Source of the DNA: Ghiorsea bivora
Lineage (GTDB): Bacteria; Pseudomonadota; Zetaproteobacteria; Mariprofundales; Mariprofundaceae
Length of the DNA: 64,000 nucleotides
Assembly (NCBI RefSeq): GCF_000744415.1
Contig: NZ_JQLW01000013.1
Span: 1-64,000, forward strand
Reading direction: 5' to 3'
The notes beneath the pieces were generated by a model. It did no database searches and had not been told where the DNA came from. It saw only the letters and a list, made by a program, of their open reading frames with translations. Each line of letters starts with the position of its first letter. The stretch's first letter is position 1. Below, piece after piece: positions 2,183 through 39,811 of this stretch. The position numbers and the translations under genes were made by a program.

Positions 2183-2215
2183 TGCGACACTGAATGGCGC
2201 AAGGTGTGTTTCCTT
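2183..2215 (+). promoter_or_regulatory. Island operator/promoter element 1 (FtsZ-like gene)
   Basis: TGCGACA (2183-2189), 5 nt, TGGCGCA (2195-2201), 8 nt, then TTCCTT as a poor -10. The dyad fits the island consensus well but the -10 is the weakest of the set. The FtsZ-like start is 18 bp further on, preceded by GAGG. Confidence 0.6.
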
Positions 2216-2232: not shown

Positions 2233-2811
2233 ATGATGAATAGAAAGAGGAAGAATGAAGTGGTATATATTGGTATTGGAGGTTGTGGTGTTTCGATATT
2301 GGAATGCGGCATAGGATTACTGCCCAAAGGAACGACATGTATTGCCATTGATCGAGATGGTAAAACACTTAATCAAGTCAAACATATTAAACATAAGTTG
2401 CCTTTGCTTAAACTAAGAATAACGGGTTCTCACCTTGAATATTCTGAACAAGCAAAAGAGCAAATACAAGAAAGCATAGACATGCAAAGACTACGTTTAG
2501 ACCTATCATTGAAGCAAACAGGTCGAGTAGTAGTGATGGCGGGCATTGGTGGAGTTGTTGGCTCATGGGCAACACTGCTTTTATGCAACCAATTTATTGA
2601 AGAAGGCAAGTTGGTAGATTTAGTTTTGGTAAAACCTTTTGCTTTTGAGAAAGAGAGAACAGAACTTGTAGAGTATGTGTTACCTTTATTCTCTGACAAG
2701 ATAAGGCAGTATATATTTCACAATGATAACTTAACCAGTAGTAGCAACTTAAGTATGAAAGAATCATTTGATAACATGAACCAACAAATATTCGATGCAT
2801 TGAAAGGGTAA
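2233..2811 (+). CDS. Truncated, degenerate FtsZ/tubulin-like GTPase-domain protein
   Basis: A 192-residue protein resembling only the N-terminal half of FtsZ. It starts with a nucleotide-loop-like GIGGCG (14-19), then AIDRDGKTL where FtsZ has the NTD-xxxL segment. It keeps AGIGG at 103-107, but the tubulin signature GGGTGTG is altered (G106 G107 V V G S W), and it retains KPFAFEKER where FtsZ has KPFxFEGKxR. It ends before the T7 loop and has no C-terminal domain, so it should not hydrolyse GTP or polymerise normally. It could still cap or bind host FtsZ (inference). It stands alone behind island element 1. ATG codons at 2233 and 2236 are both possible. The fold assignment is by motif reading. 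Confidence 0.65.
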   Translation: MMNRKRKNEVVYIGIGGCGVSILECGIGLLPKGTTCIAIDRDGKTLNQVKHIKHKLPLLKLRITGSHLEYSEQAKEQIQESIDMQRLRLDLSLKQTGRVVVMAGIGGVVGSWATLLLCNQFIEEGKLVDLVLVKPFAFEKERTELVEYVLPLFSDKIRQYIFHNDNLTSSSNLSMKESFDNMNQQIFDALKG

Positions 2812-2825
2812 ATCCTATTTACCAG

Positions 2826-2848
2826 TTATTCACAGGCAATGTGGATAA
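2826..2848. other. Palindromic pair of DnaA-box-like sequences (left)
   Basis: TTATTCACA (2826-2834) and TGTGGATAA (2840-2848) face each other across the 5-nt spacer ggcaa. Each half matches the DnaA box TTATNCACA. Almost the same structure occurs at 39832-39854 near the other end of the island. Both lie just after a stop codon and upstream of a TGCCTATAAA motif and an island promoter element. There is no U-run, so it is not a normal terminator. Confidence 0.55.
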
Positions 2849-2924
2849 AATAATTCTCTGATTATTAGCTGCGTTAGCGTGCCTATAAAAGTGTCAGTCC
2901 ATCACAAGTAACGGATTGCTTCGG

Positions 2925-2957
2925 TGCGACAGAAGTTGACGCATGATAGTTTATACT
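2925..2957 (+). promoter_or_regulatory. Island operator/promoter element 2 (HIRAN operon)
   Basis: TGCGACA (2925-2931), 5 nt, TGACGCA (2937-2943), 8 nt, TATACT as -10 (2952-2957). This is the best consensus copy. A TTTTAGGAG ribosome-binding region and the ATG at 2987 follow. Confidence 0.75.
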
Positions 2958-2986
2958 CTTTTTAAAATAAATTTTAGGAGCGTATT

Positions 2987-3349
2987 ATGACGAAAGAATT
3001 ATCACGAGAAACGTTTGAAAAGCCTGCGCATCTCCACTATAAATCAATGTTTATAACTGGATTCAAGTTCTACGAAGGTGCCTTTGTTTTCAAAAAATTA
3101 AAAGTAGGAACAAAGCTAGATTTGATTGCAGACCCAAAGAACCAACATGATGACAGTGCGGTTGAAGTTCACTTTAAAGGCAAAAAGATTGGATTTATTC
3201 CAAGGGCTCAAAATTATTCAATCTCAAAGCTATTACTTGCTGGGTATAATGTGTTTGAAGCTGTGGTGCAGCAGGTTTGCCCAGATGAAAACCCTGAGAG
3301 ACAAGTTCGTGTTGGTATTTTTATTATGGAGGTTGAGGCCGTTAAATGA
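2987..3349 (+). CDS. HIRAN-domain protein
   Basis: A 120-residue protein that is nearly all one HIRAN domain. It shows GFKFYEGAF near residue 25, a DPKNQHDDSAVEV segment near 50 (family pattern EPxNxxDxxAV), KKIGFIPR near 67 and a C-terminal beta strand. HIRAN domains bind 3' single-stranded DNA ends and usually sit on SNF2 helicases; here it is free-standing. It is first of a three-gene operon and overlaps the DnaB-like gene by 4 bp (ATGA), which suggests a joint role with that protein. An AGGAG motif precedes the start. Confidence 0.8.
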   Translation: MTKELSRETFEKPAHLHYKSMFITGFKFYEGAFVFKKLKVGTKLDLIADPKNQHDDSAVEVHFKGKKIGFIPRAQNYSISKLLLAGYNVFEAVVQQVCPDENPERQVRVGIFIMEVEAVK

Positions 3350-4011
3350 GTTATGAAGGATATGCTTTAAAAGATTTACTTATGGATTCATATGAGGAGC
3401 TGCAAAAGCGATATGACGATAATGATAAAGGGTCGGAGCCAATTGGATTTGAGACTATTGAAATTAAGCTTAACTCAGCTTTTGATTTCTTTAAGAAAGG
3501 AGGACTTTATATGCTTTCAGGAGCAGTGCCTCGAGATAATAGAGAATGTTTGATGTCAATGGCTATTGCCAATATAGCAGACTTTAAATCCACGCGAAAA
3601 GTGTTGGTGTTCCTACGTAAGACTGACCTTCAAGAATGGGGGATGCAATTACTTAGTTATGCCTCGGATGTACCGATGAAGAAAATTAGGAAGGGTGATT
3701 TTGAGACTGATGATTGGCGAAGTTTTGCGGCAGCAACGGGAGATTTGGCTGAGGTTGGTGTGCATCTTTATGAAAGTGTAGATGAATTAAATGATTGTGT
3801 GAGCTATTGTAGAGCCCAATATAAAGCAGGGAATTGTTTTGATGTGGTTGTTATCGATGGGCTAACATTACAGGAAGCAACCGACTTGGATGATGGTGGT
3901 GAAGTACGCCAATATTTGTCTGCTTTGGCAAAAGACTTGCAGGTATCGATTGTTACCTCTAGCCCAACATATAAAGGAAAGAAAAAACCAATGTTAGAAA
4001 GGGTGTTTTAA
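3346..4011 (+). CDS. DnaB-helicase-like RecA-fold protein lacking Walker A
   Basis: A 221-residue protein resembling the linker plus first part of the replicative helicase DnaB. ALKDLLMDSYEELQKRY (7-23) looks like the DnaB linker helix. A GF and GGL segment (34-54) matches the entry to the RecA fold. LSGAVPRDNREC (57-68) stands where DnaB has a GKT Walker A, so the nucleotide-binding lysine is gone. A Walker B-like VVVIDGLTL is present near 168, and the motif-4 arginine-finger region is missing. It is probably ATPase-dead and may dock on DnaB or its loader (inference). It sits between HIRAN and SemiSWEET genes. Confidence 0.6.
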   Translation: MSYEGYALKDLLMDSYEELQKRYDDNDKGSEPIGFETIEIKLNSAFDFFKKGGLYMLSGAVPRDNRECLMSMAIANIADFKSTRKVLVFLRKTDLQEWGMQLLSYASDVPMKKIRKGDFETDDWRSFAAATGDLAEVGVHLYESVDELNDCVSYCRAQYKAGNCFDVVVIDGLTLQEATDLDDGGEVRQYLSALAKDLQVSIVTSSPTYKGKKKPMLERVF

Positions 4012-8919: not shown

Positions 8920-8952
8920 AGCGACATAAATTGGCGCATAGGATGTTATCCT
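8920..8952 (+). promoter_or_regulatory. Island operator/promoter element 5 (Sir2 operon)
   Basis: AGCGACA (8920-8926), 5 nt, TGGCGCA (8932-8938), 8 nt, TATCCT as -10 (8947-8952). It overlaps a possible upstream TTG start at 8931, which decides for the ATG at 8973. Confidence 0.72.
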
Positions 8953-8972: not shown

Positions 8973-9386
8973 ATGCCGATGATATTAGATACGATTGATA
9001 AAATTTCACGCGATAAACAACGCGATGTTTTGTATATTACTTTTCACGATGCAGAAGCAGATTGGGAAGATGTGTTTGACTGGGAACAGGATGAACGTCG
9101 TAAACGGGTGATAAGCTTTTTGGAAAGTCATGGTATTTCTTATCGCATGTGTTTCCCTCCACAGCCAACTAATGGAATGGTGGTCATTTCTGGTCGTTAT
9201 AAAGGTGAAATTTATGTGGATGTTGAATTTGATGATGCTAATGAAACATACAAGCTTCTGAATAATTATTTAGAAGATGAATGTGGAAAACCACGCATAC
9301 ACAATGTTCTGTTTTGGTATTACAAATTAGAGCTAGCTATGAAAAATGCTAAGCATGATGAGCCTGGTTATTGGGATAATATGTAA
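8973..9386 (+). CDS. Hypothetical protein at head of Sir2 operon (137 aa)
   Basis: Not recognised. A soluble acidic protein with alternating helices and strands. It contains DVLYITFHDAEADWEDVFDW near residue 20 and GRYKGEIYVDVEFDD near 72. The start is set at ATG 8973 because AGGAG lies 9 bp before it and the promoter element covers the earlier TTG. Its stop overlaps the sirtuin start (TAATG), so the two are translationally coupled and the protein is a likely partner or inhibitor of the sirtuin (inference). Confidence 0.65.
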   Translation: MPMILDTIDKISRDKQRDVLYITFHDAEADWEDVFDWEQDERRKRVISFLESHGISYRMCFPPQPTNGMVVISGRYKGEIYVDVEFDDANETYKLLNNYLEDECGKPRIHNVLFWYYKLELAMKNAKHDEPGYWDNM

Positions 9387-10198
9387 TGAAAGCCATTCAA
9401 GATATTGTAGATGATGCTGAGGTTGTCATTATTACAGCTGGTGCTGGTATGGGTGTTGACTCTGGGTTACCAGACTTTCGTGGAACCCATGGTTTATGGA
9501 AGGAATACCCAGAGCTTGGGCGAAGAGATTTAGAGTTTGAGGATATGGCTAATCCAAAGTGGTTTAGAAATGATCCGAAATTGGCTTGGGCATTTTATGG
9601 GCATCGTTTTCATAAGTACATATCAATTCAACCCCATGCTGGCTTTGGTATGCTACTTGAGCTGTGTGAGAAAAAAGAAGACTACTTTGTGATTACAAGC
9701 AATGTGGATAATCAATTTCAAAAAGCAGCCTTTGACTTATCCAAGATATATGAGATACATGGCTCTTTGATGCATTTTCAATGTATATATGGATGTAAGC
9801 GAAATATTTGGGATGCCGACCCAGCATCCATACAAGTTGATGAGGAACGATTTGAGGCAACTTTGATGCCTAGCTGTCCACATTGTGGAAGGATTGCGAG
9901 ACCGAATGTCATGATGTTTGATGATTATGGCTGGCTATGTGATCGGGAACGAAGGCAAAGGAAGCGTTTTGAATCATGGAAACGGAAGGTATGGGATAGG
10001 AAAAAGAAGGTTTTAATTATAGAGGTTGGTGCAGGTACAACTGTTGCCTCAATTCGCAGGATTTCTGAACAGCTTTATGACAAGGAATTTCATTATTCTA
10101 AGTTTATCCGTATTAACCCTAGAGATATCGAAGTGCCTGTTGGTGCTAACTGCATCAAGTTGGGCGGTTTAGAGGGTATAGCTCAGCTTTTAAAATGA
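9386..10198 (+). CDS. Sir2-family NAD-dependent protein (sirtuin)
   Basis: A 270-residue sirtuin. The NAD-binding signature GAGMGVDSGLPDFRG begins near residue 18. TSNVDNQF stands near 105 in place of TQNxDxL, and the catalytic histidine is in YEIHGSL near 123. Zinc-site cysteines are in CIYGC (near 132) and SCPHCG (near 164). A basic insertion (RERRQRKRFESWKRK) follows. All core motifs are intact, so it should use NAD, either as deacylase or as an NADase of the kind found in phage-defence systems. It is coupled to the unknown gene before it and followed by a broken EEP gene, an ArfB-like gene and a SemiSWEET gene. Confidence 0.85.
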   Translation: MKAIQDIVDDAEVVIITAGAGMGVDSGLPDFRGTHGLWKEYPELGRRDLEFEDMANPKWFRNDPKLAWAFYGHRFHKYISIQPHAGFGMLLELCEKKEDYFVITSNVDNQFQKAAFDLSKIYEIHGSLMHFQCIYGCKRNIWDADPASIQVDEERFEATLMPSCPHCGRIARPNVMMFDDYGWLCDRERRQRKRFESWKRKVWDRKKKVLIIEVGAGTTVASIRRISEQLYDKEFHYSKFIRINPRDIEVPVGANCIKLGGLEGIAQLLK

Positions 10199-13411: not shown

Positions 13412-13444
13412 TGCGACACTATATGGCGCATGGGCTTGTAATAT
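13412..13444 (+). promoter_or_regulatory. Island operator/promoter element 6
   Basis: TGCGACA (13412-13418), 5 nt, TGGCGCA (13424-13430), 8 nt, TAATAT as -10 (13439-13444). The gene at 13482 follows after 37 bp with AGGAGAGG as ribosome-binding site. Confidence 0.75.
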
Positions 13445-28750: not shown

Positions 28751-28857
28751 TGATCAAAACAGTGATCATCATAGTGTTCACTTTAACCCTTAAGTCTTGA
28801 TATTTCACTTTTATTATATCATGTTACCGTATTTAGTTAGTGTTCAATGGAGTGGTC

Positions 28858-30036
28858 ATGCCAATAAGTTCATTCACACCCGTAGTGCCGTCGGATGCCG
28901 TATCAGGCAAGCTCAAAGAGAAGTCTTTTGAATTGACGAAGAAGGCGAGCGCGCTTACGCCACATGCGCCGCTATTGCAGCCGCTTAGTCAGCTTGCGCG
29001 TGTCATGAACTGTTATTACAGCAATTTGATTGAAGGGCATAACACGCTGCCTTATGAAGTTGAAAGTGCGCTGAACAACAATTTATCTGCTGATTCTGCA
29101 ACCAGAGATTTGCAACAAGAAGCCCTGGCGCATATCCATGTGCAATCCTTGATTGATGAGGGTAAATATCCGCAACCCGCAATGTCGATTGAATTTTTAA
29201 CATGGTGTCACTCTGAATTTTATCAGCGGCTACCCGAATCCATGTTGATGATAAAACATCCTCAAACAGATGAAGAGGTATTGATGAAAGCGGGTGAAAT
29301 TCGTATGCGTGGGGTGCAGGTTGGCAAGCATATTGCGCCCGATGCCGAACAAGTCCGCCCTATGTTGCAAAGCCTGTTTGACACATACCATAAGTATCAC
29401 GGTGGTGATATGTTGATTGCCATTGCTGCAGCCAATCATCGGGTAGCATGGATTCATCCGTTTATGGATGGTAATGGGCGCACGATTCGGCTCATGGCAC
29501 ATGCTGCTTTGCAAAGCTTGGGTTTAAATGTTGGTTTGTGGTCGCCATCGCGTGGTTTGGCGCGTTCGGTACAGCAATATAAACAGCATTTGGCGCAAGC
29601 TGACCAAATCAGGCAAGGCTCATCCACAGATGGTCGCGGCACATTGTCTGAAAAAGGGTTGTTGAACTTTTGCGATTATTACTTGACGACTTGCATTGAT
29701 CAGGTGGATTTTATGAGTCAGTTGTTTGATATGAAAAACCTTAGCCGGCGTATCGAGCGCTATTGTGTGGATGAACATCAACGCTCAAAACTATCGCCTG
29801 ATTCGTTCTTATTGTTGCGTGAGGCGTTGTATCGTGGTGAGTTTGATAGAGGCGAAGTGAAACACATGATTGCAGGAAAATCTGAGGTCACGGGTCGGCG
29901 TGTGCTCAAAGGTTTGTTGGATAGAAAGTTGTTAATTTCTGATTCGCCACGAGGCAAAGTGCGCTTAAACATCCCAAGCCATGTGCTGGGGGCATGGTTT
30001 CCGAACCTATATCCTGAAAGTGCTTTGCTGTGTTAA
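28858..30036 (+). CDS. Fic-domain protein (AMPylator-type)
   Basis: About 392 residues. The Fic core motif HPFMDGNGRTIR starts at H200. An N-terminal inhibitory-helix motif SNLIEG near 54-59 (pattern S/TxxxEG) marks a self-inhibited class II Fic protein. A winged-helix-like region lies at the C-terminus (VTGRRVLKGLLDRKLL). Start ATG 28858 is chosen for the GGAG 8 bp upstream. It sits alone between two copies of the YqiA C-terminus and has no island element; the upstream gap has repeats of GTGATCA and GTGTTCA that may be its own operator. Confidence 0.85.
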   Translation: MPISSFTPVVPSDAVSGKLKEKSFELTKKASALTPHAPLLQPLSQLARVMNCYYSNLIEGHNTLPYEVESALNNNLSADSATRDLQQEALAHIHVQSLIDEGKYPQPAMSIEFLTWCHSEFYQRLPESMLMIKHPQTDEEVLMKAGEIRMRGVQVGKHIAPDAEQVRPMLQSLFDTYHKYHGGDMLIAIAAANHRVAWIHPFMDGNGRTIRLMAHAALQSLGLNVGLWSPSRGLARSVQQYKQHLAQADQIRQGSSTDGRGTLSEKGLLNFCDYYLTTCIDQVDFMSQLFDMKNLSRRIERYCVDEHQRSKLSPDSFLLLREALYRGEFDRGEVKHMIAGKSEVTGRRVLKGLLDRKLLISDSPRGKVRLNIPSHVLGAWFPNLYPESALLC

Positions 30037-30060
30037 ATCATCTAGGTGATGCATTTATGG

Positions 30061-30168
30061 ATGATGAATAAACTTGAGGTTGCAAACTTTGACAGTGGTG
30101 AATATAGGTTTGGAAACATTGCGGATAGTGAAGTGAAAATAGCCTTGCAGGGAATAATAGGTAAATAA
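30061..30168 (+). pseudogene. Duplicated C-terminal fragment of YqiA-like gene
   Basis: A 35-codon frame whose second half, YRFGNIADSEVKIALQ and on to its stop, aligns with the last residues of the YqiA-like protein (HRFENLGDKEVTSFLQ). It is a diverged copy left on the far side of the Fic gene, consistent with insertion of Fic next to the 3' end of an older gene. Confidence 0.45.
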
Positions 30169-30263
30169 AAGTAAACAATGATTTTCTTTATGATTTTCTA
30201 TACGCTTTGGACTGAAACAATATAGAGGTGTGGGAGCCAATGAGAGTTTGTTCGTTTAATTAG

Positions 30264-30932
30264 ATGATAACAGAATATCACGCAAAATATTATGCCCATG
30301 AGCTAACGCTTCAGCACGCCAGTAATGGTGTTGATCGCCTTTCGCAGTCTTTGTTTGATGCCTCGGTTGATCTGAATCCCCATCAAATTGAAGCGGCCTT
30401 GTTTGCTTTGCGGAACCCTTTGAATAAAGGCGTTATTCTTGCAGATGAAGTGGGTTTGGGTAAAACCATCGAAGCTGCCTTGGTTCTAAGTCAATGCTGG
30501 GCAGAGCGAAAGAGGCACTTGCTGATTATATGCCCTGCATCATTGCGTAGGCAGTGGGCTTCAGAGTTGCAAGAAAAATTTAACCTGCCTAGTCAAATAC
30601 TTGATGCGCCAACCGTGCGAAAGTTCAGAAAGAATGGTATATTCTCACCGCTATCAATGAAGAAAGTGATTATCATGTCATATCATTATGCGGCAAGGTT
30701 GGAAGAAGAGCTTATTGCGGTACCTTGGGACTTGGTGGTTATTGATGAAGCACATAAACTTAGAAATGCTCACAGACCAAAAAACAAGATGGGGCAAGCA
30801 TTAAATGCCAGCCACTATCTCAAACAACATGGTGGCAAGGAGTGGAAATACTTATTGATTCCGCATGATGAGGTGAAAGATAATAAAAAGTTGGTTGATT
30901 TTGTTCGTGCCTTTACAGTGAACAATACATGA
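30264..30932 (+). pseudogene. Internally deleted SNF2/superfamily 2 helicase remnant
   Basis: The first about 175 residues are a normal SNF2-type helicase start: NPHQIEAALFAL, Walker A LADEVGLGKTIEAAL, ICPASLRRQW and motif II VVIDEAHKLRN. The frame then jumps to a typical far C-terminus of such proteins (HGGKEWKYLLIPHDEV followed by DNKKL). Several hundred residues including motifs IV-VI are missing although no stop intervenes. The 222-residue product cannot be a helicase. Its stop overlaps a duplicated start of the WYL gene (ATGA). Confidence 0.65.
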
Positions 30933-30994
30933 GTGATACAGTATTGCGGCAATGGGCGATGTTGCGGATGGTGCTTCGAGCGACAACTGAATGA
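30929..30994 (+). pseudogene. Duplicated 5' end of the WYL-regulator gene
   Basis: A 21-codon frame that matches the start of the WYL gene at 32013 (MSDTV-RQW-MLRMV), then ends. Its ATG overlaps the helicase stop and its own stop overlaps the NERD start, both as ATGA. It shows that the WYL gene once followed the helicase directly and that the NERD gene was inserted with a duplicated edge. Confidence 0.7.
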
Positions 30995-32016
30995 ATTTCC
31001 TACCGTCCATTTTTGATGCAGTGTTACCCATGGCACTTTTTGGGCTAGCAGTTTTCTTACTGGTCTCTGGGTTTAAGCTTTATCAGCCTATTTTAGTGGG
31101 TTGGTTAGGTGAGTTGGTTATCAAAGGTGAACTATCAGGCTTAGATGAAAATCAGTATATCCAGTTTCATGATGTGCTTTTGCCTATTGATGGCGAAACG
31201 ACGCAAATTGACCATGTTTTAATCGTGGGAGACACATGCTTTGTGATTGAAACCAAAGCCTATGCAGGATGGATATACGGCAAAGCGCATGATAAGACTT
31301 GGCTGCAAACATTTAACAAGCGTGCTAAGTTCCCATTTCAAAACCCAATCAGACAAAATCATAAACATATCCTTGCGATTAAATCGTGCCTCAAAGATTT
31401 GAAGGTTAAAGGAGTGGTGGTTTTCACTCATGGTAAACTTAAGAGCCCTAGAATTGATGGTGTTTTATATGCCAAAGAATTAAAACAATATATTCTTGAA
31501 CAAGATGTAGATAAGTCTTTTAACAATAAACCTGCACTTCAAGCATTACAAAAAGTGATGATCACGGATAAGGCAGATCATAAGGCGCATGTGTTGCGGT
31601 TGCAGAAGAAACATGGGGGTCGGTGGCGTACACCTGTTGCCAAAACCTTTATATTGGCATCCATTGTTATGTTTATCATTGCTTCAAATATAAATGGTTC
31701 AAAATCCAGCCATGAGGTGAAACAGGCTTATGCTCCAGAGCGCATCCAAGCGCAGCCTCTGGCTGTTGTTCCAAAGCAAGTGCAAAAACGCGTTCAGCAG
31801 GTTGAGCAGAAAAGTGTTCCGTTGGTTGCGCCCGTGGTGAAAGGCTTTGCGAAAGGAAAGGTAATGCTAGCGATTGGCAATGATTATAAAATGTTACGTG
31901 TAGGGGAAACAACCCATGATGGTTGGACTTTGCAAGCTTCTGAAAATAATACAGCAATGTTTACACATATTTCAGGGCAAAAAGTAAAAGTATCCCTACG
32001 AGGAGTTGAGAAATGA
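30991..32016 (+). CDS. Membrane-anchored NERD-domain protein
   Basis: A 341-residue protein: membrane segment at 10-28, NERD (nuclease-related) domain about 35-160 with GELVIKGEL, an LLPIDGETTQIDHVLI stretch and FVIETKAYAGWIYG, a second membrane segment near 216-232, a Pro/Gln/Val-rich linker and a C-terminal beta domain with GWTLQASENNTAMF. The D and ExK residues of the nuclease core are present. It is translationally coupled to both neighbours, but inserted secondarily (see the duplicated WYL start). NERD proteins are frequent in defence islands; target unknown. Confidence 0.75.
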   Translation: MNFLPSIFDAVLPMALFGLAVFLLVSGFKLYQPILVGWLGELVIKGELSGLDENQYIQFHDVLLPIDGETTQIDHVLIVGDTCFVIETKAYAGWIYGKAHDKTWLQTFNKRAKFPFQNPIRQNHKHILAIKSCLKDLKVKGVVVFTHGKLKSPRIDGVLYAKELKQYILEQDVDKSFNNKPALQALQKVMITDKADHKAHVLRLQKKHGGRWRTPVAKTFILASIVMFIIASNINGSKSSHEVKQAYAPERIQAQPLAVVPKQVQKRVQQVEQKSVPLVAPVVKGFAKGKVMLAIGNDYKMLRVGETTHDGWTLQASENNTAMFTHISGQKVKVSLRGVEK

Positions 32017-33020
32017 GTGATACAGTAATGCGGCAATGGATGATGTTGCGGATGGTGCCAAGATCGCCGAGTAAAATCAGCACCATAGAAATTATGAATA
32101 ACTTAGCAGCGGAAAGCTTCATAATTTCGCAACGCTCTATTCAACGCGATTTGGATAAGTTTTCATCCATTTTTCCGCTTGAATGTGATGATAGAAGTAA
32201 ACCTTTTGGTTGGTCGTGGCGCAAAGATGCTCCTACGATCGATATTCCAGGCATGGATTCACACACTGCATTGGCATTCTATTTGGCAGAGCAACATCTT
32301 GAGCCGATTCTGCCACGAGAAACGGTAGTGAAATTAAATCCACACTTTTTATCGGCAAAAAAGATACTTAATGAACTTTCAGGTGATTCGGGAACTACAT
32401 CTTGGGTGAATAAAGTGCGTGTACTGCGCCAAGGCCCTGATTTATCTACGCCAGAGATTGATGCAGGTGTGCAAGAGAAGGTTTACACAGCATTGCTGTT
32501 GAATAAACGCTTGGAAGTACAATATAAGAAGCGCGGCGCGACAAAAGCGAAGGATTATACGATTAGCCCGCTGGCGTTGGTGCTTAAAAATGGTATTTTT
32601 TATATTCCGTGTACCGTGTTTAATTATGACGATATTCGCTTGATGACATTGCACAGGATTAAACAAGCAACATTAACGGATGCGATGATTGATTCGCCTG
32701 AAAATTTTGACTTGGATGCGTATATCCAGTCGGGTGAGTTAAGTTTTCAAGTAGGTGATATGATAAAGCTTACAGCCATCATTGATAAGGATGTGGCATT
32801 CCATTTGGGTGAGCGCAAGCTTAGCCCAGACCAAACACTGGAAGAACAAGAGGATGACACATTTCTATTGCAAGCCACAGTGAATGATACTTCGGAGCTT
32901 CGGTTTTGGTTGCGTGGCTATGATGAGCAGATTGAAGTGCTTGAGCCTAAGGAGCTACGAGATGATTTATATCGAAGCGCTCAAGCGCAAATTAAGAAGT
33001 ATGAAGCTAGCCAAGGTTGA
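32013..33020 (+). CDS. WYL-domain transcriptional regulator (BrxR/CapW-like)
   Basis: A 335-residue regulator. The N-terminal winged helix (ISTIEIMNNLAAESFIISQRSIQRD region) binds DNA. The WYL domain (about 150-240) begins at KVYTALLLNKRLEVQYKKRG, with SPLALVLKNGIFYIPC and LHRIKQATL in place of the usual W-Y-L core. A C-terminal extension (WCX-like) ends in LRFWLRGY. WYL regulators of this size repress defence systems by binding inverted repeats. It is the best local candidate to read the island operator, though no element stands before its own operon. It overlaps NERD by 4 bp. Confidence 0.8.
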   Translation: MSDTVMRQWMMLRMVPRSPSKISTIEIMNNLAAESFIISQRSIQRDLDKFSSIFPLECDDRSKPFGWSWRKDAPTIDIPGMDSHTALAFYLAEQHLEPILPRETVVKLNPHFLSAKKILNELSGDSGTTSWVNKVRVLRQGPDLSTPEIDAGVQEKVYTALLLNKRLEVQYKKRGATKAKDYTISPLALVLKNGIFYIPCTVFNYDDIRLMTLHRIKQATLTDAMIDSPENFDLDAYIQSGELSFQVGDMIKLTAIIDKDVAFHLGERKLSPDQTLEEQEDDTFLLQATVNDTSELRFWLRGYDEQIEVLEPKELRDDLYRSAQAQIKKYEASQG

Positions 33021-33109
33021 GAAGGTCATCTATTAATAGATGGCTGTTGTTATATATAGGTGTAAGTGATTTTGATTGGGTGTTTTGAGCTATAAGAAAG
33101 GAGAGAGAT

Positions 33110-33583
33110 ATGAAAATAATTGGAGTAAAGCCAGATACAGGTGAAACATTCCAAGAAGATGTGGCAGAAATTTCAAATGACTATTTTCAAGAGTTCTCTA
33201 TTTTTGAGATGTCGGATGATGATATTAAAAGAATGATTGATCGATTGAATATTTCTGCAGATATAAAGGCATTACTGTTTAAGTTTTCAAAGGCAACACT
33301 CAAGGTTGGGTCATATGTACTCAAGGTTGGGCGCAAAATTATTGATTATATTTGCTCTGCCTTTCGTGAATATCCGAATACTGGATTTGGAATGCTTTTT
33401 GGAGCAATTGTAACGCTTCTTATTGCTTCTATTCCAGTTTTAGGTGCGTTGCTTGCCCCAATTGTTGGCCCGATATTAATAGCCTATGGAATTTTGGTTG
33501 GTGCAAATGTGGATTTAGAGAATAAAAAACTTAAAACGCGTGTTCAAGATATTGTTGCAAGCTTTATACCTTTAAAAACATGA
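33110..33583 (+). CDS. Small protein with glycine-rich membrane hairpin
   Basis: Not recognised. It has 157 residues: a soluble N-terminal part (1-60), an amphipathic region (65-88) and a strongly hydrophobic Gly/Ala/Pro-rich stretch (about 92-135, GAIVTLLIASIPVLGALLAP) that can form a membrane hairpin, then a short charged tail. GGAGAGAG precedes the ATG. It overlaps the TerB-domain gene by 4 bp, so the two form a unit. The hydrophobic core would suit a membrane-acting effector, which is inference. Confidence 0.6.
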   Translation: MKIIGVKPDTGETFQEDVAEISNDYFQEFSIFEMSDDDIKRMIDRLNISADIKALLFKFSKATLKVGSYVLKVGRKIIDYICSAFREYPNTGFGMLFGAIVTLLIASIPVLGALLAPIVGPILIAYGILVGANVDLENKKLKTRVQDIVASFIPLKT

Positions 33584-34410
33584 ATGATCACAAAAGATTA
33601 GAACAAAGGCTTGGCGAGCTTGATGAAATTATTAGTGACCCATTAAGGTTTAAAGCTAAACTTGGTATTGGTGAAGATGCTTATACTAGCCTGAGCATAA
33701 AAAATAAAATTTCAGACTTTTGGGATGTCGCAGGAACTGCAGCAACTACAGCATCGATGGCAAGTTCACCTGCAGTAGCATCAACATTTTTCTCAACAAG
33801 TGGGGTGTTATCACTGTTTGGATTAGGAGCCGCTGTTACCCCAGTTGGCTGGGTGATTGCTGCTGGTGTGGCTGGTGGTGGAGCATGGTATGGAATTCGT
33901 AGGGCTATACGGAGTGCTACTCATGATAGGGTGACTGTGATTCCGAAGTTTATTAATACGCCTATGGATATTTTAGCCTTGGGTCTTTTTGACTTAATGG
34001 GTCCACTTGCTTTAAAAGTAGCTGTCATTGATGGTGAAGTGGTTGAGGCTGAAAGAAAGCATATTGAGTCATACTTTGTTAAGGAATGGGGTTATAACCC
34101 AGAGTTTATTCAAAGTGCTACAGCTATCACTGAGGCAAGTCTTTCTGAAATATCAATCAAAGATATATCCCAAGCACTGGCAACCTTACAGAAAGAAAAC
34201 AAAGACTGTAATTATGAGGTGATGACACGCGAGATTTTAAACTTTTTAGTTGGTGTTACCGAAGCTGACGGACGACTTGATGAGCGGGAAGAAATGGCTA
34301 TAGATAGGATACAAGCTGTGTTTCTTGAAACGAACAAGTTGAATATTACGGGTAAAGTAACCTTAGTTGGTAGGGCATTGGCTTCAAGGTTTAAGCACCC
34401 TAAAGAATAG
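33580..34410 (+). CDS. TerB-like domain protein with hydrophobic N-terminal region
   Basis: A 276-residue protein. Residues about 48-108 are Ala/Gly/Ser-rich and hydrophobic (LFGLGAAVTPVGWVIAAGVA), like a membrane or glycine-zipper segment. Residues about 130-270 resemble a TerB helical domain with the two acidic motifs VAVIDGEVVEAERKHI and VGVTEADGRLDEREEMAI, which in TerB bind metal. TerB domains link tellurite/stress systems to phage defence. It is coupled to 33110-33583. Which process it serves is unknown. Confidence 0.65.
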   Translation: MNDHKRLEQRLGELDEIISDPLRFKAKLGIGEDAYTSLSIKNKISDFWDVAGTAATTASMASSPAVASTFFSTSGVLSLFGLGAAVTPVGWVIAAGVAGGGAWYGIRRAIRSATHDRVTVIPKFINTPMDILALGLFDLMGPLALKVAVIDGEVVEAERKHIESYFVKEWGYNPEFIQSATAITEASLSEISIKDISQALATLQKENKDCNYEVMTREILNFLVGVTEADGRLDEREEMAIDRIQAVFLETNKLNITGKVTLVGRALASRFKHPKE

Positions 34411-34415
34411 GGTGC

Positions 34416-34712
34416 CTATTTGAGTCGTTTTTTGGCTGTGTAGAACAGGGCTAGTAAAGTAACGGCAGGAAAAATAGCGAAGGAAAAAGTTCCAAGTACA
34501 ATGAGGTATAATACCATTAAACCGAGACCAAGAAATAATAATAGGTAGCCAACCCACCAGAGCAAGTGCTCAATAAATAGAGCAGGCATCATACTTTTTA
34601 GCTTGCTGTTATGGTTTGCGGGGTACGGCTGCTTCATCCTCTCGGTATGGCGTTTGATGCTTTGAAGCATTGCCCAACCACCTAAACATATCATAAGAAC
34701 TGACCAAATCAT
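34416..34712 (-). CDS. Small three-helix membrane protein (98 aa)
   Basis: Not recognised. Three hydrophobic segments (about 1-16, 44-66, 68-88) with a basic linker and a KKRLK tail. ATG 34712 is preferred over 34742 because AGAGG lies 7 bp before it, while the earlier ATG sits directly on the predicted -10. It is driven by a minus-strand island promoter element, divergent from the DnaQ-Sir2-like gene. Confidence 0.6.
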   Translation of the reverse strand: MIWSVLMICLGGWAMLQSIKRHTERMKQPYPANHNSKLKSMMPALFIEHLLWWVGYLLLFLGLGLMVLYLIVLGTFSFAIFPAVTLLALFYTAKKRLK

Positions 34713-34742
34713 GATTTTAACCTCTTGTGTTTTATAGGACAT

Positions 34743-34775
34743 AACTTAGAGCAGGTTGCGACAACGGGTGACGTT
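34743..34775 (-). promoter_or_regulatory. Island operator/promoter element 9 (minus strand)
   Basis: Read on the minus strand: AACGTCA, 5 nt, TGTCGCA, 8 nt, TAAGTT (34743-34748). The halves and spacing match the island consensus and it faces the small membrane-protein gene. Confidence 0.6.
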
Positions 34776-34815
34776 TGTAGTTGCTTGGTATTTTAATAAG
34801 CCACCGTTTTTTTGT

Positions 34816-34848
34816 AGCGACAATAGTTGACGCACAATGGTCTAGATT
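34816..34848 (+). promoter_or_regulatory. Island operator/promoter element 10
   Basis: AGCGACA (34816-34822), 5 nt, TGACGCA (34828-34834), 8 nt, TAGATT (34843-34848). It is placed for the DnaQ-Sir2-like gene 22 bp further on. Confidence 0.72.
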
Positions 34849-34869
34849 TGCTTCTTTATAGAGAGGTGA

Positions 34870-36414
34870 ATGATGCGGTTGATTATGTTAGATACTGAAA
34901 CTACAGGTTTAAGCCCTGAGCAAGGTGATAAAATTGTCGAGATTGGTGCGGTTGAGATTGTGAACCGTGACTTGTCGCAGAAAAGGACATATCAGCAATA
35001 TATTAATCCACAGCGCCCTAGTTCATCAGGTGCCTTTCGGGTACATGGTTTGACAGAAGAGCGTCTGCAAGATGAACCATTGTTTGCCGAAATTGAAGAA
35101 GCGTTTCTAAGTTTTATCAGAGGCGGGGTGTTGGTTATTCACAATGCCGTATTTGACCTTGGATTTCTAATGAATGAGTTGTCAGATGCAGGCAAAAAAG
35201 AGCTTGAGTCTTTTATGGTGATTGATTCATTTAAACTTGCGAAAAGCTTATTTACGAGCAAAAATAGTTTGGATGCATTGTGTGATAAATTCGACGTGGA
35301 TAGACAACATCGAACCTTACATGGTGCGTTATTAGATGCGGAGCTGTTGGCAGAAGTTTATCTTTTAATGACAGGTGGAACCCAATTTTCTTTGGGTTTG
35401 AACTCGTTCGAGGAGCCTGTCTCAAATTATGCACTGCCATTTAAAAGCTCTGCTATGTTAAAAGAACGCAAGGAAACTTCTAACCTCACTCGAAGACCAC
35501 CTGCAAAGCTTCGTCAAGATGATATTAGTGCTCACCAAGCGATGATGCAGCGTATCCATAAAGAAAGCGGTGGGCAAACAATATGGAACCTGCCTGAGCG
35601 CAAGAAACGAGCGCAATCTTATGTGCAACAAGCCGAAGCATTCCTATTTGTGACAGGTGGTACATTTGATAGTAAGCACGGACATAATGATTTGCCGCTA
35701 ACCAAGCAGTTTCGAGATGCTTGTCCTGAGTATGGGAAGCAAGACCCGAAAAAGGCCATACATATTCAAGATGAGAAGATGTTTTTTGAATACCCCAACA
35801 CTGCATGGTCTTTTTATGCGGATTTTATTGTGAAAGCTCGCGAGGCAGAAGCAGATGAAACATTGCAAGCGTGGCTTGCTTTAGCCAAAACCAAACCTGA
35901 AGGCTATTTTGCTTATACATCAAACCTTGATGGTCGATTGCAAACAGCGGGCTGGGATGAGCAATGTTTGGTTGAGGCGCATGGCTCCCTTCATCATATG
36001 CAGTGTGTTTCTGATTGTGATTTAGGTGTTGTGCGTAATGACATTGCCTTTGATATTTATATGAATGAGTTGCGTACTGATATACCCACGTGTCCCAAAT
36101 GCGGGTCGGATATGATGCCCAATGTTTCAAAATTAAATCAAAAGCATTTTGATAGTTCGCGATTTGATGAGCAATCAGCACGGTTGAATGCGTGGATTGA
36201 TGATTTGGAAGCAAGGCAAAAACGCTTGGTGGTGATTGAGGTGGGTTGTAATGATGCAAAAGTTCAGTCGTTTTCCAATAAACTTAGCGAACCTGAATTT
36301 ACACGCTTGATTCGCAATAATATGCATTATCAACATGGGCGAGTACCTGAAAGTGGCTTGGCTTTGAATATGACGCTAGATAGTTGTTTTGATTTATTAG
36401 TTGGACTGCGTTGA
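34870..36414 (+). CDS. DnaQ-type exonuclease fused to a degenerate sirtuin-like domain
   Basis: A 514-residue fusion. Residues 1-190 are a DEDDh 3'-5' exonuclease like DNA polymerase epsilon subunit: MLDTETTG, VIHNAVFDLGF near 92 and HGALLDAELL near 155. Residues about 240-514 follow the sirtuin plan: TSNLDGRL near 350, EAHGSLHHM near 368 with the catalytic His, zinc cysteines CVSDC (near 378) and CPKCG (near 408), and EVGCND near 458. The NAD signature GAGxS...DFRG is replaced by VTGGTFDSKHGHND, so NAD use is doubtful. ATG 34870 or 34873 follows GAGAGG. I know of no common protein with this architecture. Confidence 0.75.
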   Translation: MMRLIMLDTETTGLSPEQGDKIVEIGAVEIVNRDLSQKRTYQQYINPQRPSSSGAFRVHGLTEERLQDEPLFAEIEEAFLSFIRGGVLVIHNAVFDLGFLMNELSDAGKKELESFMVIDSFKLAKSLFTSKNSLDALCDKFDVDRQHRTLHGALLDAELLAEVYLLMTGGTQFSLGLNSFEEPVSNYALPFKSSAMLKERKETSNLTRRPPAKLRQDDISAHQAMMQRIHKESGGQTIWNLPERKKRAQSYVQQAEAFLFVTGGTFDSKHGHNDLPLTKQFRDACPEYGKQDPKKAIHIQDEKMFFEYPNTAWSFYADFIVKAREAEADETLQAWLALAKTKPEGYFAYTSNLDGRLQTAGWDEQCLVEAHGSLHHMQCVSDCDLGVVRNDIAFDIYMNELRTDIPTCPKCGSDMMPNVSKLNQKHFDSSRFDEQSARLNAWIDDLEARQKRLVVIEVGCNDAKVQSFSNKLSEPEFTRLIRNNMHYQHGRVPESGLALNMTLDSCFDLLVGLR

Positions 36415-36499
36415 AACAAAAGCATAAAAAATACTTACTATGGAAAGTGAAAGTTAACAAAGAACAGTGTATTGTACCACGGTTTGTTATCTATAAATT

Positions 36500-36528
36500 T
36501 TGACATTGTTCGGTTAGTATAGATAATT
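36500..36528 (+). promoter_or_regulatory. Sigma-70-type promoter for a possibly leaderless mRNA
   Basis: TTGACA (36500-36505), 17 nt, ATAATT (36523-36528). Transcription would begin near 36534, the ATG itself, and no ribosome-binding site is visible. This differs from the island promoter type. Confidence 0.5.
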
Positions 36529-36533
36529 GATGT

Positions 36534-37535
36534 ATGGATACTTTGGAATTAACGCATCGGCAAAGTTTGGAGTTTACGGATAGTTTGCAGCTTTTTGAGG
36601 CTTGGCAGGATGCAAAAATGCGTGCGAATCATTATTCAGGCTCTATGCATTGGAAAAGCATCAAGGGTAAAAAATACCTTTATCACATGCTGGATGGTTA
36701 TGGTAAAGGCAAGAGCTTGGGGGCGGAAAATGATAAAACCCAAGCGATGTATGATGCTTTTCAACAAGGTAAAAAAGAAACAACCGAGCGCATCAAATCT
36801 CTACAGAAAGCTTTGGATGAAAAAGCAGCGTTGAATCGTGCGGTTGGTTTGAACCGTGTGCCACTCATCGTTGCTCGTATTGTCAGAGAGCTAGATAAAC
36901 AAGGTTTGATGGGTGAGCGCATTTGTACGGTTGGTACACATGCGATTTATGCTTATGAAGCCTTGGCGGGTGTGATGGTCTATCGTGAGTTGTTGGCAAC
37001 TGCTGACGTGGACTTCTTGTGGGATAATCGTAAAGAGGTGAAGTTTTATTCGGCTGCCAATGTGGATGGGTTCTTACCTATACTCAAAAAGGCAGACCGT
37101 AGCTTTGAGCGCAGCTCGCAACTTTATCGTGCTGCCAATAAAGATGGTTTTATGGTGGATTTGATTGTTGCGGAGCCTAAAGACTTGCGTGAGCAACCCC
37201 ATGAACAAATGGGCGATGCTTATGATTTGAAAGCATCAGGGATTGGTAGCCTACGTTGGCTCATCAATTCGCCCAAGGTGGAGGCTGTTGTGATGGATAG
37301 TAGAGGTTACCCTTTCCGTATTGTTGTGCCAGACCCGCGCTCATTTGCAGTTCACAAGCTGTGGGTAAGCAAGCAGCCAAACCGAAGAGCTGATAAAGCC
37401 AAGCGAGATCAAGAACAGGCATTCACCGTAGCCAAACTGGTGATGGAGCGGTTGCCACAGTTTCCATTTGATGCAAAGGCATTAAAAATGTTTCCGAAAG
37501 ATTTGGTTGAACAAAGCTTGAAAGCATGGCGATGA
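36534..37535 (+). CDS. Nucleotidyltransferase-fold protein, GSU2403 type
   Basis: A 333-residue protein of the GSU2403/NTP_transf_8 nucleotidyltransferase family. The N-terminal region is charged and helical. VGTHAIYAYEALAGV near 140 and ATADVDFLWDNRKEV near 161 give the G-H...DxD-type active site, and a third acidic residue comes in FMVDLIVAEP near 208. The substrate is unknown; members occur in defence and toxin contexts. It has a promoter of its own and may be translated from a leaderless mRNA. Confidence 0.75.
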   Translation: MDTLELTHRQSLEFTDSLQLFEAWQDAKMRANHYSGSMHWKSIKGKKYLYHMLDGYGKGKSLGAENDKTQAMYDAFQQGKKETTERIKSLQKALDEKAALNRAVGLNRVPLIVARIVRELDKQGLMGERICTVGTHAIYAYEALAGVMVYRELLATADVDFLWDNRKEVKFYSAANVDGFLPILKKADRSFERSSQLYRAANKDGFMVDLIVAEPKDLREQPHEQMGDAYDLKASGIGSLRWLINSPKVEAVVMDSRGYPFRIVVPDPRSFAVHKLWVSKQPNRRADKAKRDQEQAFTVAKLVMERLPQFPFDAKALKMFPKDLVEQSLKAWR

Positions 37536-37674
37536 TACTTTTCTGTCGTTTTGAAAGTTAAGCTCTTTATAATATTCTACTTTAGACTGTCATTACTTTT
37601 CGGGGGATTATCAGTCAGCCATCATTATTTTGAAACATATTTCGAAGCCTAATGCAATAGATTAAGTTTTCTTG

Positions 37675-37707
37675 TGCGACATTATTTGACGCTCTGTGCA
37701 GTATCAT
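37675..37707 (+). promoter_or_regulatory. Island operator/promoter element 11
   Basis: TGCGACA (37675-37681), 5 nt, TGACGCT (37687-37693), 8 nt, TATCAT as -10 (37702-37707). It drives the double AAA+ gene. Confidence 0.75.
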
Positions 37708-37738
37708 CTTCCTATCATTAAAGCATAGGAGATTGGAT

Positions 37739-39811
37739 ATGGGTATTCGACACAGACACAGAAGATTTTCAGGAAATGGTCGGCAAAAAGATGAAAGAAC
37801 AGTTTCAATTTGGATGCTTAGGCTTTTAACGCAAAATAATTGGATGTTTAAGGCAATCTTCCATCCAGAGAAAGGGTATGCGGATGATGATGTTCAAGAG
37901 TTCTTGGGTCTTCCCGAATATGATTCTGATAAGAAGATAACTTATAAAAAAGTGCGAAATTTCATGGTGGATAAGCTTGAGAGGCTAGAATCCAAGAAAA
38001 TATCGGATAAGGCTATTGATTTTAATATCAATCTTTTAGCGGAGCGCATTGAGCTTACAGAAGTTCAAAAGTCACTATTAACTTTTGCTGTGCTTACAGA
38101 TAATAGTAGTGCTTGGTCTGATATGTTTAGATTTGTGAAAATTGAAAATGAGCAAGAGTTTTTAAATGTTTTGTCTTGCGCGCTTGATGTTGGCTTGCGT
38201 GAGATAAAAAAAGAAGTATCTAAAAAATCTTTTCTTAGACAGTCGGGTTTAATTTCTCTCAATAAAGATTATTATACTGAAGCAAAGTTTGATATCATGA
38301 GCAGCCTAGAAGAAGCGTTGCTTGCCGACAATACGAATCAAGAAGAGTTATTGGCTCATTTTCTTATGCCTACTAAAAAAAGTAACCTCACAATGAAAGA
38401 TTACCCACATGCTATGGATGATATCCAAGTTGTTTCTGAAGTGTTGAGCAAAGCAATCAATCGTAAAGATATGGGTGTGAATATATTGCTCTATGGAATA
38501 CCAGGTACGGGTAAAACGGAGCTGGTACGCTTATTGGCTGAAACATTGAAGTTGTCTTTGTATGAGGTGAAAACGGAAGACGATGATGGTGGTGCGATTA
38601 ATGCTTCGCGACGACTTGGAAGCTATCGCTTAAGCCAGCAGCTTCTTGCTGAAGATAAAAACAGTCTGTTGTTATTTGATGAGGTTGAAGATGTGTTTCC
38701 AGCCAGAGCTTTTTCATTTTTTGGGATGGAGATGAAGTCGGGCGAAAATAAAGGATGGATGAACAAAACCCTAGAGGAAAACACAACACCTGCGATTTGG
38801 GTGTGTAATCAAGTGAGACAAATTGATGCGGCATTCTTGCGACGGTTTGATTATGTGATGGAGCTAAACACGCCACCGAAGTCTGTTCGCCTAAATATCA
38901 TCAAATCTTATTTAAGTGATGAGCGCGTCAGCGAAGCGTTTAAAAACCGTTTGGCAGACCATAGTCAGCTTTCACCAGCGCAAGTGGCGAAACTGAGTAA
39001 GGTAGCATCCCGACTGGGTCAAAGCTCAGAGTCGATTGATGAAGTGTTAGAAAAAGTACTTGAAAATAGCTTGAAAGCGATGTCGTTAAAACCTTTGCCT
39101 AAGAAATCCAAGCATGAAACGAAATATGATTTATCTTTCATCAATACCCATGCCGATATTCAAAGCATGATTAAGGGGCTTGGTCGCAGTAAGAAGGGTA
39201 ATTTATGCTTTTATGGTGCGCCAGGAACGGGTAAAACTGCTTTAGCAGGGTATATCGCTGAAACATTAGAGATGCCTTTGGTAAGTAAAAAAGCATCGGA
39301 TATTCTGGGTATGTATGTTGGGCAATCAGAACAAAATATTGCAGCCATGTTTCGCGAAGCCACGCGAGAAAAAGCGGTGTTAGTTCTGGATGAAGCCGAT
39401 TCATTGTTGCGAGATAGGAGAAGTGCCAACCAGTCATGGGAAGTCACCCAGGTGAACGAACTTCTTGTACAGATGGAAAACTTTGAAGGCATTTTTATTT
39501 GCTCAACAAATTTAATGGATAATCTTGATCAGGCGAGTCTTCGCCGTTTTGCACTTAAAATTGAGTTTAAATACTTAAGTCCTGAACAGGCATTGCGAAT
39601 GCTAGAGCAAGAATCTTTAGAAGCTGTGGATAGCGATTCAAAGCGTAAGATTTTAGCTATGAACAACTTGGCACCAGGAGATTTCTCAGCAGTGAAGAAA
39701 CGCCTCAATATCTTGGATTTAGATGCATCTGCTAAAAACTGGGTGGCAGAGCTGAAAGAAGAGGTAACTACCAAAGAGCCACATGCTCAGAAACCTATCG
39801 GTTTTATGTAG
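37739..39811 (+). CDS. Double AAA+ ATPase (690 aa)
   Basis: Two AAA+ modules in one chain. Module 1: Walker A YGIPGTGKTEL near 253, Walker B LLLFDEVEDVFP near 310. Module 2: Walker A YGAPGTGKTAL near 494, Walker B VLVLDEADSLL near 550, with FLRRFDYVMEL and SLRRFALKIEF as arginine-finger regions. The N-terminal about 230 residues are a helical domain I do not recognise. Start ATG 37739 follows AGGAG at 7 bp. It resembles FtsH/CDC48-type remodelling ATPases, with no protease domain. It stands alone behind an island element; partner and substrate are unknown. Confidence 0.75.
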   Translation: MGIRHRHRRFSGNGRQKDERTVSIWMLRLLTQNNWMFKAIFHPEKGYADDDVQEFLGLPEYDSDKKITYKKVRNFMVDKLERLESKKISDKAIDFNINLLAERIELTEVQKSLLTFAVLTDNSSAWSDMFRFVKIENEQEFLNVLSCALDVGLREIKKEVSKKSFLRQSGLISLNKDYYTEAKFDIMSSLEEALLADNTNQEELLAHFLMPTKKSNLTMKDYPHAMDDIQVVSEVLSKAINRKDMGVNILLYGIPGTGKTELVRLLAETLKLSLYEVKTEDDDGGAINASRRLGSYRLSQQLLAEDKNSLLLFDEVEDVFPARAFSFFGMEMKSGENKGWMNKTLEENTTPAIWVCNQVRQIDAAFLRRFDYVMELNTPPKSVRLNIIKSYLSDERVSEAFKNRLADHSQLSPAQVAKLSKVASRLGQSSESIDEVLEKVLENSLKAMSLKPLPKKSKHETKYDLSFINTHADIQSMIKGLGRSKKGNLCFYGAPGTGKTALAGYIAETLEMPLVSKKASDILGMYVGQSEQNIAAMFREATREKAVLVLDEADSLLRDRRSANQSWEVTQVNELLVQMENFEGIFICSTNLMDNLDQASLRRFALKIEFKYLSPEQALRMLEQESLEAVDSDSKRKILAMNNLAPGDFSAVKKRLNILDLDASAKNWVAELKEEVTTKEPHAQKPIGFM

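Follow-up and report, generated by a model that had tools for sequence, protein, structure and literature searches.

What does a bacterium do with a protein that joins a DEDDh exonuclease to a sirtuin-like domain? The question is raised by a gene at 34870..36414 (+ strand) of the window, the 64,000-nucleotide stretch analysed here of DNA from Ghiorsea bivora, an iron oxidiser of the deep sea, which comes from a 2.15 Mb genome in 13 contigs listed as 100% complete. The open reading frame encodes 514 aa, is preceded by a good ribosome-binding site (GAGAGGTGAATGATG) and is identified by its domain matches as a dnaQ-pseudosirtuin fusion. The two-domain composition given in a preliminary description is borne out by profile searches: PF00929 matches residues 5-164 (E 8.6e-35) and the SIR2 family PF02146 matches residues 298-419 (36 bits; cut-off 24), so that neither half is a chance resemblance. 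One reading frame runs through the junction. The alpha-binding tail of the first half ends at W239-N240, and the sirtuin part starts directly after it and has no separate start codon among its first residues. The gene product is predicted to be a second, divergent Pol III epsilon with a sirtuin-fold module after its alpha-binding tail.

The exonuclease domain (residues 5-164; 34882..35361, + strand), recognized by PF00929 and by dnaQ equivalog models, has the full set of DEDDh residues (D8, E10, D96, H151 and D156) when compared with its relatives, as the preliminary description had supposed for the active site. The fusion scores 230.4 bits with TIGR01406 (cut-off 222.7) and 240.6 with PRK05711 (cut-off 196), and its DnaQ half matches the curated dnaQ equivalog models to their last positions. 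Sequence comparison identifies a putative clamp-binding motif, QFSLGL, at residues 172-177 (35383..35400, + strand), compared with QFSLGM in most zetaproteobacterial DnaQs and QTSMAF in E. coli DnaQ (PMC3642679). The alpha-binding tail (residues 201-240; 35470..35589, + strand) keeps nine of nine near-invariant residues. Over the linker and tail together, 18 of the 19 near-invariant positions, defined from 29 zetaproteobacterial DnaQs, are kept, as against 73 of 91 in the exonuclease domain. The fusion thus has in common with DnaQ (TIGR01406, PRK05711) the DEDDh site, the clamp motif, the linker and the alpha tail up to the final tryptophan. It differs from that family in being a second copy, with its own stress-type promoter and a sirtuin domain after the tail. 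The DnaQ half of the fusion shares 54% identity with the product of the housekeeping dnaQ, located on another contig, and 54-57% with Ghiorsea DnaQs. The fused DnaQ branches among those of Ghiorsea in a tree, weakly supported and with a long branch, a position that a paralogue originating in this lineage would be expected to take. All the sequence tests applied place this half in the epsilon family, as a complete Pol III epsilon paralogue, and its clamp and alpha docking parts point to the replisome. C-terminal fusions are tolerated by E. coli DnaQ (PMC2288635).

Residues 241-514 (35590..36411, + strand) were assigned to the sirtuin fold, lacking NAD-binding motifs, by profile, alignment, structure model and Foldseek. 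Using the AlphaFold2 model of this half (pLDDT 80.1, pTM 0.82), the top Foldseek matches are all sirtuins, and the best PDB match is SirTM (5a3a; E 2.9e-14), fold evidence that is not wholly independent of homology because intact sirtuins were present in the alignment behind the model. The predicted fold is therefore Sir2-related, as had been proposed, and not one unrelated to Sir2. Within the folded part of the model, the former NAD loop has the lowest confidence. A full-length AlphaFold model (pLDDT 66.6, pTM 0.45) shows a folded exonuclease domain and a flexible linker, with no reliable arrangement of the domains relative to each other.

The relatives of the pseudosirtuin are intact sirtuins with the GAGMGVDSGLPDFRG segment, which is kept in the 33 intact relatives compared, apart from isolated substitutions at F and at the final G; one such intact sirtuin, the second member of this family in the window, is encoded at 9386-10198. 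In the fusion, the alignment places GGTFDSKHGHNDLPL (residues 263-277; 35656..35700, + strand) in the position of the NAD-binding loop, and 3 of the 14 invariant core residues of the family's GAGMGVDSGLPDFR segment are kept. The NAD-binding GAG and PDFR motifs are lost in both Ghiorsea bivora and a Ghiorsea metagenome-assembled genome (MAG; G013). Further along, EVGCN replaces EIGAG, and neither the second GAG nor the R of TIR (residues 459-466) is retained. A compensating frameshift restoring GAG/PDFR was rejected, as the other two frames, read by eye, are without the motif. Retained residues, located by alignment at 35923..36102 (+ strand), comprise N352 and D354 in a kept TSNxD motif (T350-S-N352-x-D354), H371 and the zinc cysteines C379, C383, C408 and C411. 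The preliminary description, which had the sirtuin histidine and both zinc cysteine pairs kept and the NAD signature lost, was right on each point. Taken together, alignment and model indicate that the C-terminal half adopts a sirtuin fold in which the NAD site has been destroyed. Compared with bacterial SIR2 proteins (PF02146, GAGMGVDSGLPDFRG type), it has the fold, the zinc cysteines and the TSNxD and HGS motifs, whereas the GAG/PDFR NAD segment and the second GAG are destroyed. The NAD-dependent sirtuin class is not apt for the fusion, because the NAD segment that defines this class was tested and is absent. The nearest solved structures are SirTM (5a3a) and the fungal Mfs1 (8rsn). In SirTM, a class M ADP-ribosylating sirtuin, the catalytic His is replaced by Gln (PMC4518038); in contrast, the pseudosirtuin retains the catalytic histidine, H371.

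These features bear on the abortive-infection effector with a sensing part that was first envisaged for this gene. An effector of this kind that consumes NAD would be in keeping with the sirtuin fold, the presence of the catalytic N, D and H and the island in which the gene lies. We consider it highly improbable, as GAG, PDFR and the second GAG are lost in both genomes, none of the sirtuin-type models of PADLOC matches the fusion, and the exonuclease half is, by its homology, a Pol III epsilon paralogue. The NAD-consuming, abortive-infection part of the proposal is thus not supported, and a regulatory, sensor-like sirtuin module is possible. In its explicit form, the sensor proposal holds that a small ligand, derived from NAD or not, is bound in the remodelled pocket without being turned over, and that this gates the exonuclease. 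In its favour, the residues on the nicotinamide-ribose side (N352, D354 and H371) are retained, purifying selection acts on the whole domain including the loop, and an intact-sirtuin operon bears the same promoter element as the fusion (see below). Against it, the loop for the remainder of the NAD molecule has lost almost all its residues, and the kept residues may be structural, which leaves the proposal unlikely in our estimate.

Comparison with the Ghiorsea MAG gives a dN/dS of 0.14 for the DnaQ half and the sirtuin half alike, and of 0.12 for the part of the sirtuin that holds the destroyed NAD loop. Both halves are under purifying selection, with dN/dS about 0.14, and the pseudosirtuin domain is maintained rather than decaying. 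A duplicate decaying without function might be suspected from the long branches in trees and from the existence of one fused and one split copy. It has very little to recommend it in view of the low dN/dS in every part of the fusion (0.12-0.14), the conservation of the promoter element in G013 and the single frame in which both halves stay across the junction. On the same dN/dS values, a pseudogene was rejected.

The split copy is found in the MAG. A genome-collection search with a narrow query returned one close relative only, on a contig of this MAG (G013:C54), which is 90% identical over the sirtuin half. There, unrelated sequence of about 92 bp (L056:7900-8040) takes the place of about 130 bp comprising the alpha tail and the junction, with 91-95% DNA identity to the fusion locus on both flanks of the replaced stretch. 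The result is a truncated DnaQ of 212 aa, with the sirtuin in an ORF of its own. Only one genome thus attests the fused state, and docking is not essential in G013. A scar recalling IS21 at the junction was considered and discarded, as it has one copy in G013, none in G000 and no plasmid match. No further DnaQ-sirtuin fusion was found in 78 Zetaproteobacteria genomes, and none was recognized in 398 genomes of the phylum and 300 genomes of one order, a scan in which five long-frame sirtuin loci were read. Plasmids and phages gave no record covering 80% of the query, viral scans gave no close relatives of the pseudosirtuin or the fused DnaQ, and a full-text literature search gave no description of an epsilon-sirtuin fusion.

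Fusions of a DnaQ-type exonuclease to a DnaB_C-type ATPase occur in two other Zetaproteobacteria, G062 and G066 (L051:5880-7187 and L052:1-948, both on the - strand). Like the dnaQ-pseudosirtuin gene, these encode a DnaQ paralogue with a C-terminal partner domain and have the same promoter element upstream; they differ in having a DnaB-like ATPase as partner and no epsilon tail. In a further genome, G011, a gene for a tail-less DnaQ-type exonuclease is immediately followed by a PD-(D/E)XK-nuclease-like gene and then by a WYL gene (L054:5186-7982, - strand).

The promoter element was first noticed inside the fusion's island, by comparing the DNA upstream of the fusion with that upstream of an AAA gene. 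Its consensus is TGCGAC-N7-G(T/A/G)CGCA-N8-TAnnnT. Two copies precede the fusion, an upstream one at 34757..34775 and a proximal one at 34816..34848 (both + strand), the latter with a TAGATT hexamer 8 bp after it and 35 bp before the ATG. Another copy (37675..37693, + strand) precedes the double-AAA ATPase gene (37739..39811, + strand), which of all genes with the element is the best conserved across the class. The remaining sites, also on the + strand, lie at 2183..2201, before a tubulin-like gene (2233-2811) and 59 bp before a divergent S24/LexA-like gene (1549-2124); at 2925..2943, before HIRAN (2987) and DnaB-like (3346) genes; at 8920..8938, before an operon (8976-10198) that ends in the intact sirtuin; and at 13412..13430, before an unknown 130-aa gene (13482). 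Tubulin/FtsZ-like, HIRAN and DnaB_C-like genes stand in a row at 2233-4011; the Walker A of the DnaB-like protein is degenerate (SGAVPRDNRE). In another genome, G010 (L218), the same trio adjoins an S24-peptidase/umuC pair.

With up to one mismatch, GCGACA-N5-TGACG occurs 7 times in the window versus 0.5 expected, an enrichment that is in part not independent, since three of the seven sites were used to define the element; all seven lie on the + strand, the coding strand of the genes downstream. Genome-wide, the TGRCG form is matched 8 times, with 7 of these sites in the fusion's island; in G013 it is matched 5 times, always on the contig with the orthologous genes, and the promoter element before the fusion is conserved there. 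Across Zetaproteobacteria, TGCGAC-N7-GTCGCA or a near form precedes the AAA orthologues in 10 of 10 readable promoters (G000 and G013 included). The palindrome, mostly 31-52 bp upstream of the start codon, also precedes genes for DnaQ-DnaB_C fusions and for tubulin-like, HIRAN, DnaB-like, metallo-beta-lactamase and sigma70-region-4 proteins, and its occurrence in other genera is independent support for the element. Allowing up to two mismatches, we obtained 41 hits in the window, G013 and the WYL and AAA/DnaQ-fusion loci; the reversed pattern gave 2, and control loci totalling 98 kb gave no hit. In an alignment of 30 sites, a T-A-n-n-n-T hexamer that was never part of the search pattern follows the palindrome at a distance of exactly 8 bp (T 27/30, A 29/30, T 29/30), a fixed -10 spacing; some of these sites are orthologous and so do not make up 30 independent cases. 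The element is predicted to be a promoter whose -35 region is overlapped by the binding site of a dimer, and it marks an apparently undescribed zetaproteobacterial regulon. It is also present at loci L052, L182, L183, L186, L190, L191, L194-L198, L218 and L255, WYL genes are among those it precedes, and proteins of 71 aa consisting of sigma70 region 4 alone are encoded under it (L194:739-996, - strand; L051 from about 3915, + strand).

A WYL-WCX regulator gene near the fusion (32013..33020, + strand; PF13280, PF25583) encodes a candidate reader of the element. A close WYL homologue is absent from 7 of 13 AAA-bearing genomes, and with co-occurrence this imperfect we rejected the WYL protein as the sole regulator. 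An S24-peptidase (LexA/UmuD-like) gene adjoining umuC also has the element in its upstream region. The products of both genes are candidate regulators, a role that is unproven. The mycobacterial RecA-NDp promoter, read by PafBC, has the form TTGTCRGTG-N8-TAnnnT. Our locus resembles it in having an HTH-WYL-WCX gene near the fusion and the same N8-TAnnnT spacing. However, the PafBC site lacks the palindromic form of the present element, and the regulator is a candidate only. The WYL-WCX class of activators, which includes PafBC, has been described (PMC6789036).

The region around the fusion carries McrB-like, GmrSD, UvrD-type helicase, Fic, NERD, WYL-WCX, TerB-domain and AAA genes and, judged by this gene content, is a variable, defence-rich island, in which the analysis turned up no direct sign of phage defence. 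No conserved operon partner of the fusion was found: the TerB neighbour is limited to G000 and G013, save for one weak hit, and the AAA gene has other neighbours in other genomes. The only PADLOC matches of the fusion are to DEDDh and PDC-S48 models, both in the DnaQ half; of the PDC-S48 defence candidate, profile positions 8-198 of 411 are matched, which correspond to the DnaQ part. Unlike a CRISPR-associated DEDDh nuclease, the fusion has no adjoining cas genes, since, apart from hits to WYL and DEDDh domain models, no cas family is matched by the proteins encoded at 28840-39811. The setting in a defence-rich island raises the possibility of a free-standing nuclease effector, in which the epsilon-derived exonuclease degrades phage or host DNA once activated, the sirtuin fold does no more than oligomerize or autoinhibit it, and the docking parts are inherited and unused. 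The G013 protein without an alpha tail, both halves nevertheless being under selection, and the tail-less DnaQ gene of G011 next to a nuclease-like and a WYL gene agree with this. It is harder to reconcile with linker and tail residues that are better kept than the exonuclease domain, and we regard such an effector as rather unlikely.

A spare epsilon, a dead sirtuin and a promoter common to replication- and stress-like genes together favour a protein bound at the fork, serving in stress or defence, over a suicide enzyme that burns NAD. The best explanation, to which we give a little less than an even chance, is an alternative epsilon, induced by stress, which would dock on the clamp and on Pol III and bring with it a sirtuin module without catalytic activity. 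DNA damage, or the replication stress that phage infection causes, would activate the promoter. The fusion protein would then dock on the beta clamp and Pol III alpha, competing with the housekeeping DnaQ, and so bring a 3'-5' exonuclease to the fork. The sirtuin-fold module may serve as a zinc-stabilized binding or regulatory domain, and not as an NAD hydrolase or deacylase. The genes under the element are rich in copies or fragments of core machines, and the fusion, like the DnaB-like, tubulin-like and sigma70 region 4 products, could instead be a decoy that mimics phage-attacked host parts and titrates a phage protein. An intact exonuclease site would be needless for a decoy, and we think this role improbable.

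The alternative epsilon may also belong to something larger, a modular stress or anti-phage regulon of Zetaproteobacteria, controlled by a WYL- or LexA-like regulator at TGCGAC-N7-GTCGCA-N8-TAnnnT. It would combine an AAA ATPase and sirtuins with duplicated parts of core machines (epsilon-pseudosirtuin, epsilon-DnaB, DnaB-like, tubulin-like, sigma region 4). The epsilon-pseudosirtuin would replace the proofreader at attacked forks, with the dead sirtuin as a switch. We put this forward as a speculative possibility that is more doubtful than probable. If the alternative epsilon acts as proposed, bacteria can recruit a signalling-type fold to the replication fork through attachment to a spare proofreading subunit, a route of which no description was found in the literature searched. 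The common promoter element provides a means to catalogue the remaining genes of the set and to search for what triggers it, and the fusion shows a sirtuin kept by selection after the loss of NAD chemistry.

Other unusual fusions were seen in the course of the analysis. A 620-aa frame in another proteobacterium (L202) joins a WYL-type domain to an intact sirtuin of the family nearest the pseudosirtuin, and intact sirtuins of the same family are fused at two loci (L204, L205) to an N-terminal domain of roughly 170 aa of no identified family. In the window, a chimeric ORF at 30264-30932 combines the N-terminus of an SNF2 helicase with the last ~45 residues of a type III restriction subunit; the subunit is intact in G013 (L019:10953-13676), and the chimera is evidently a deletion scar.
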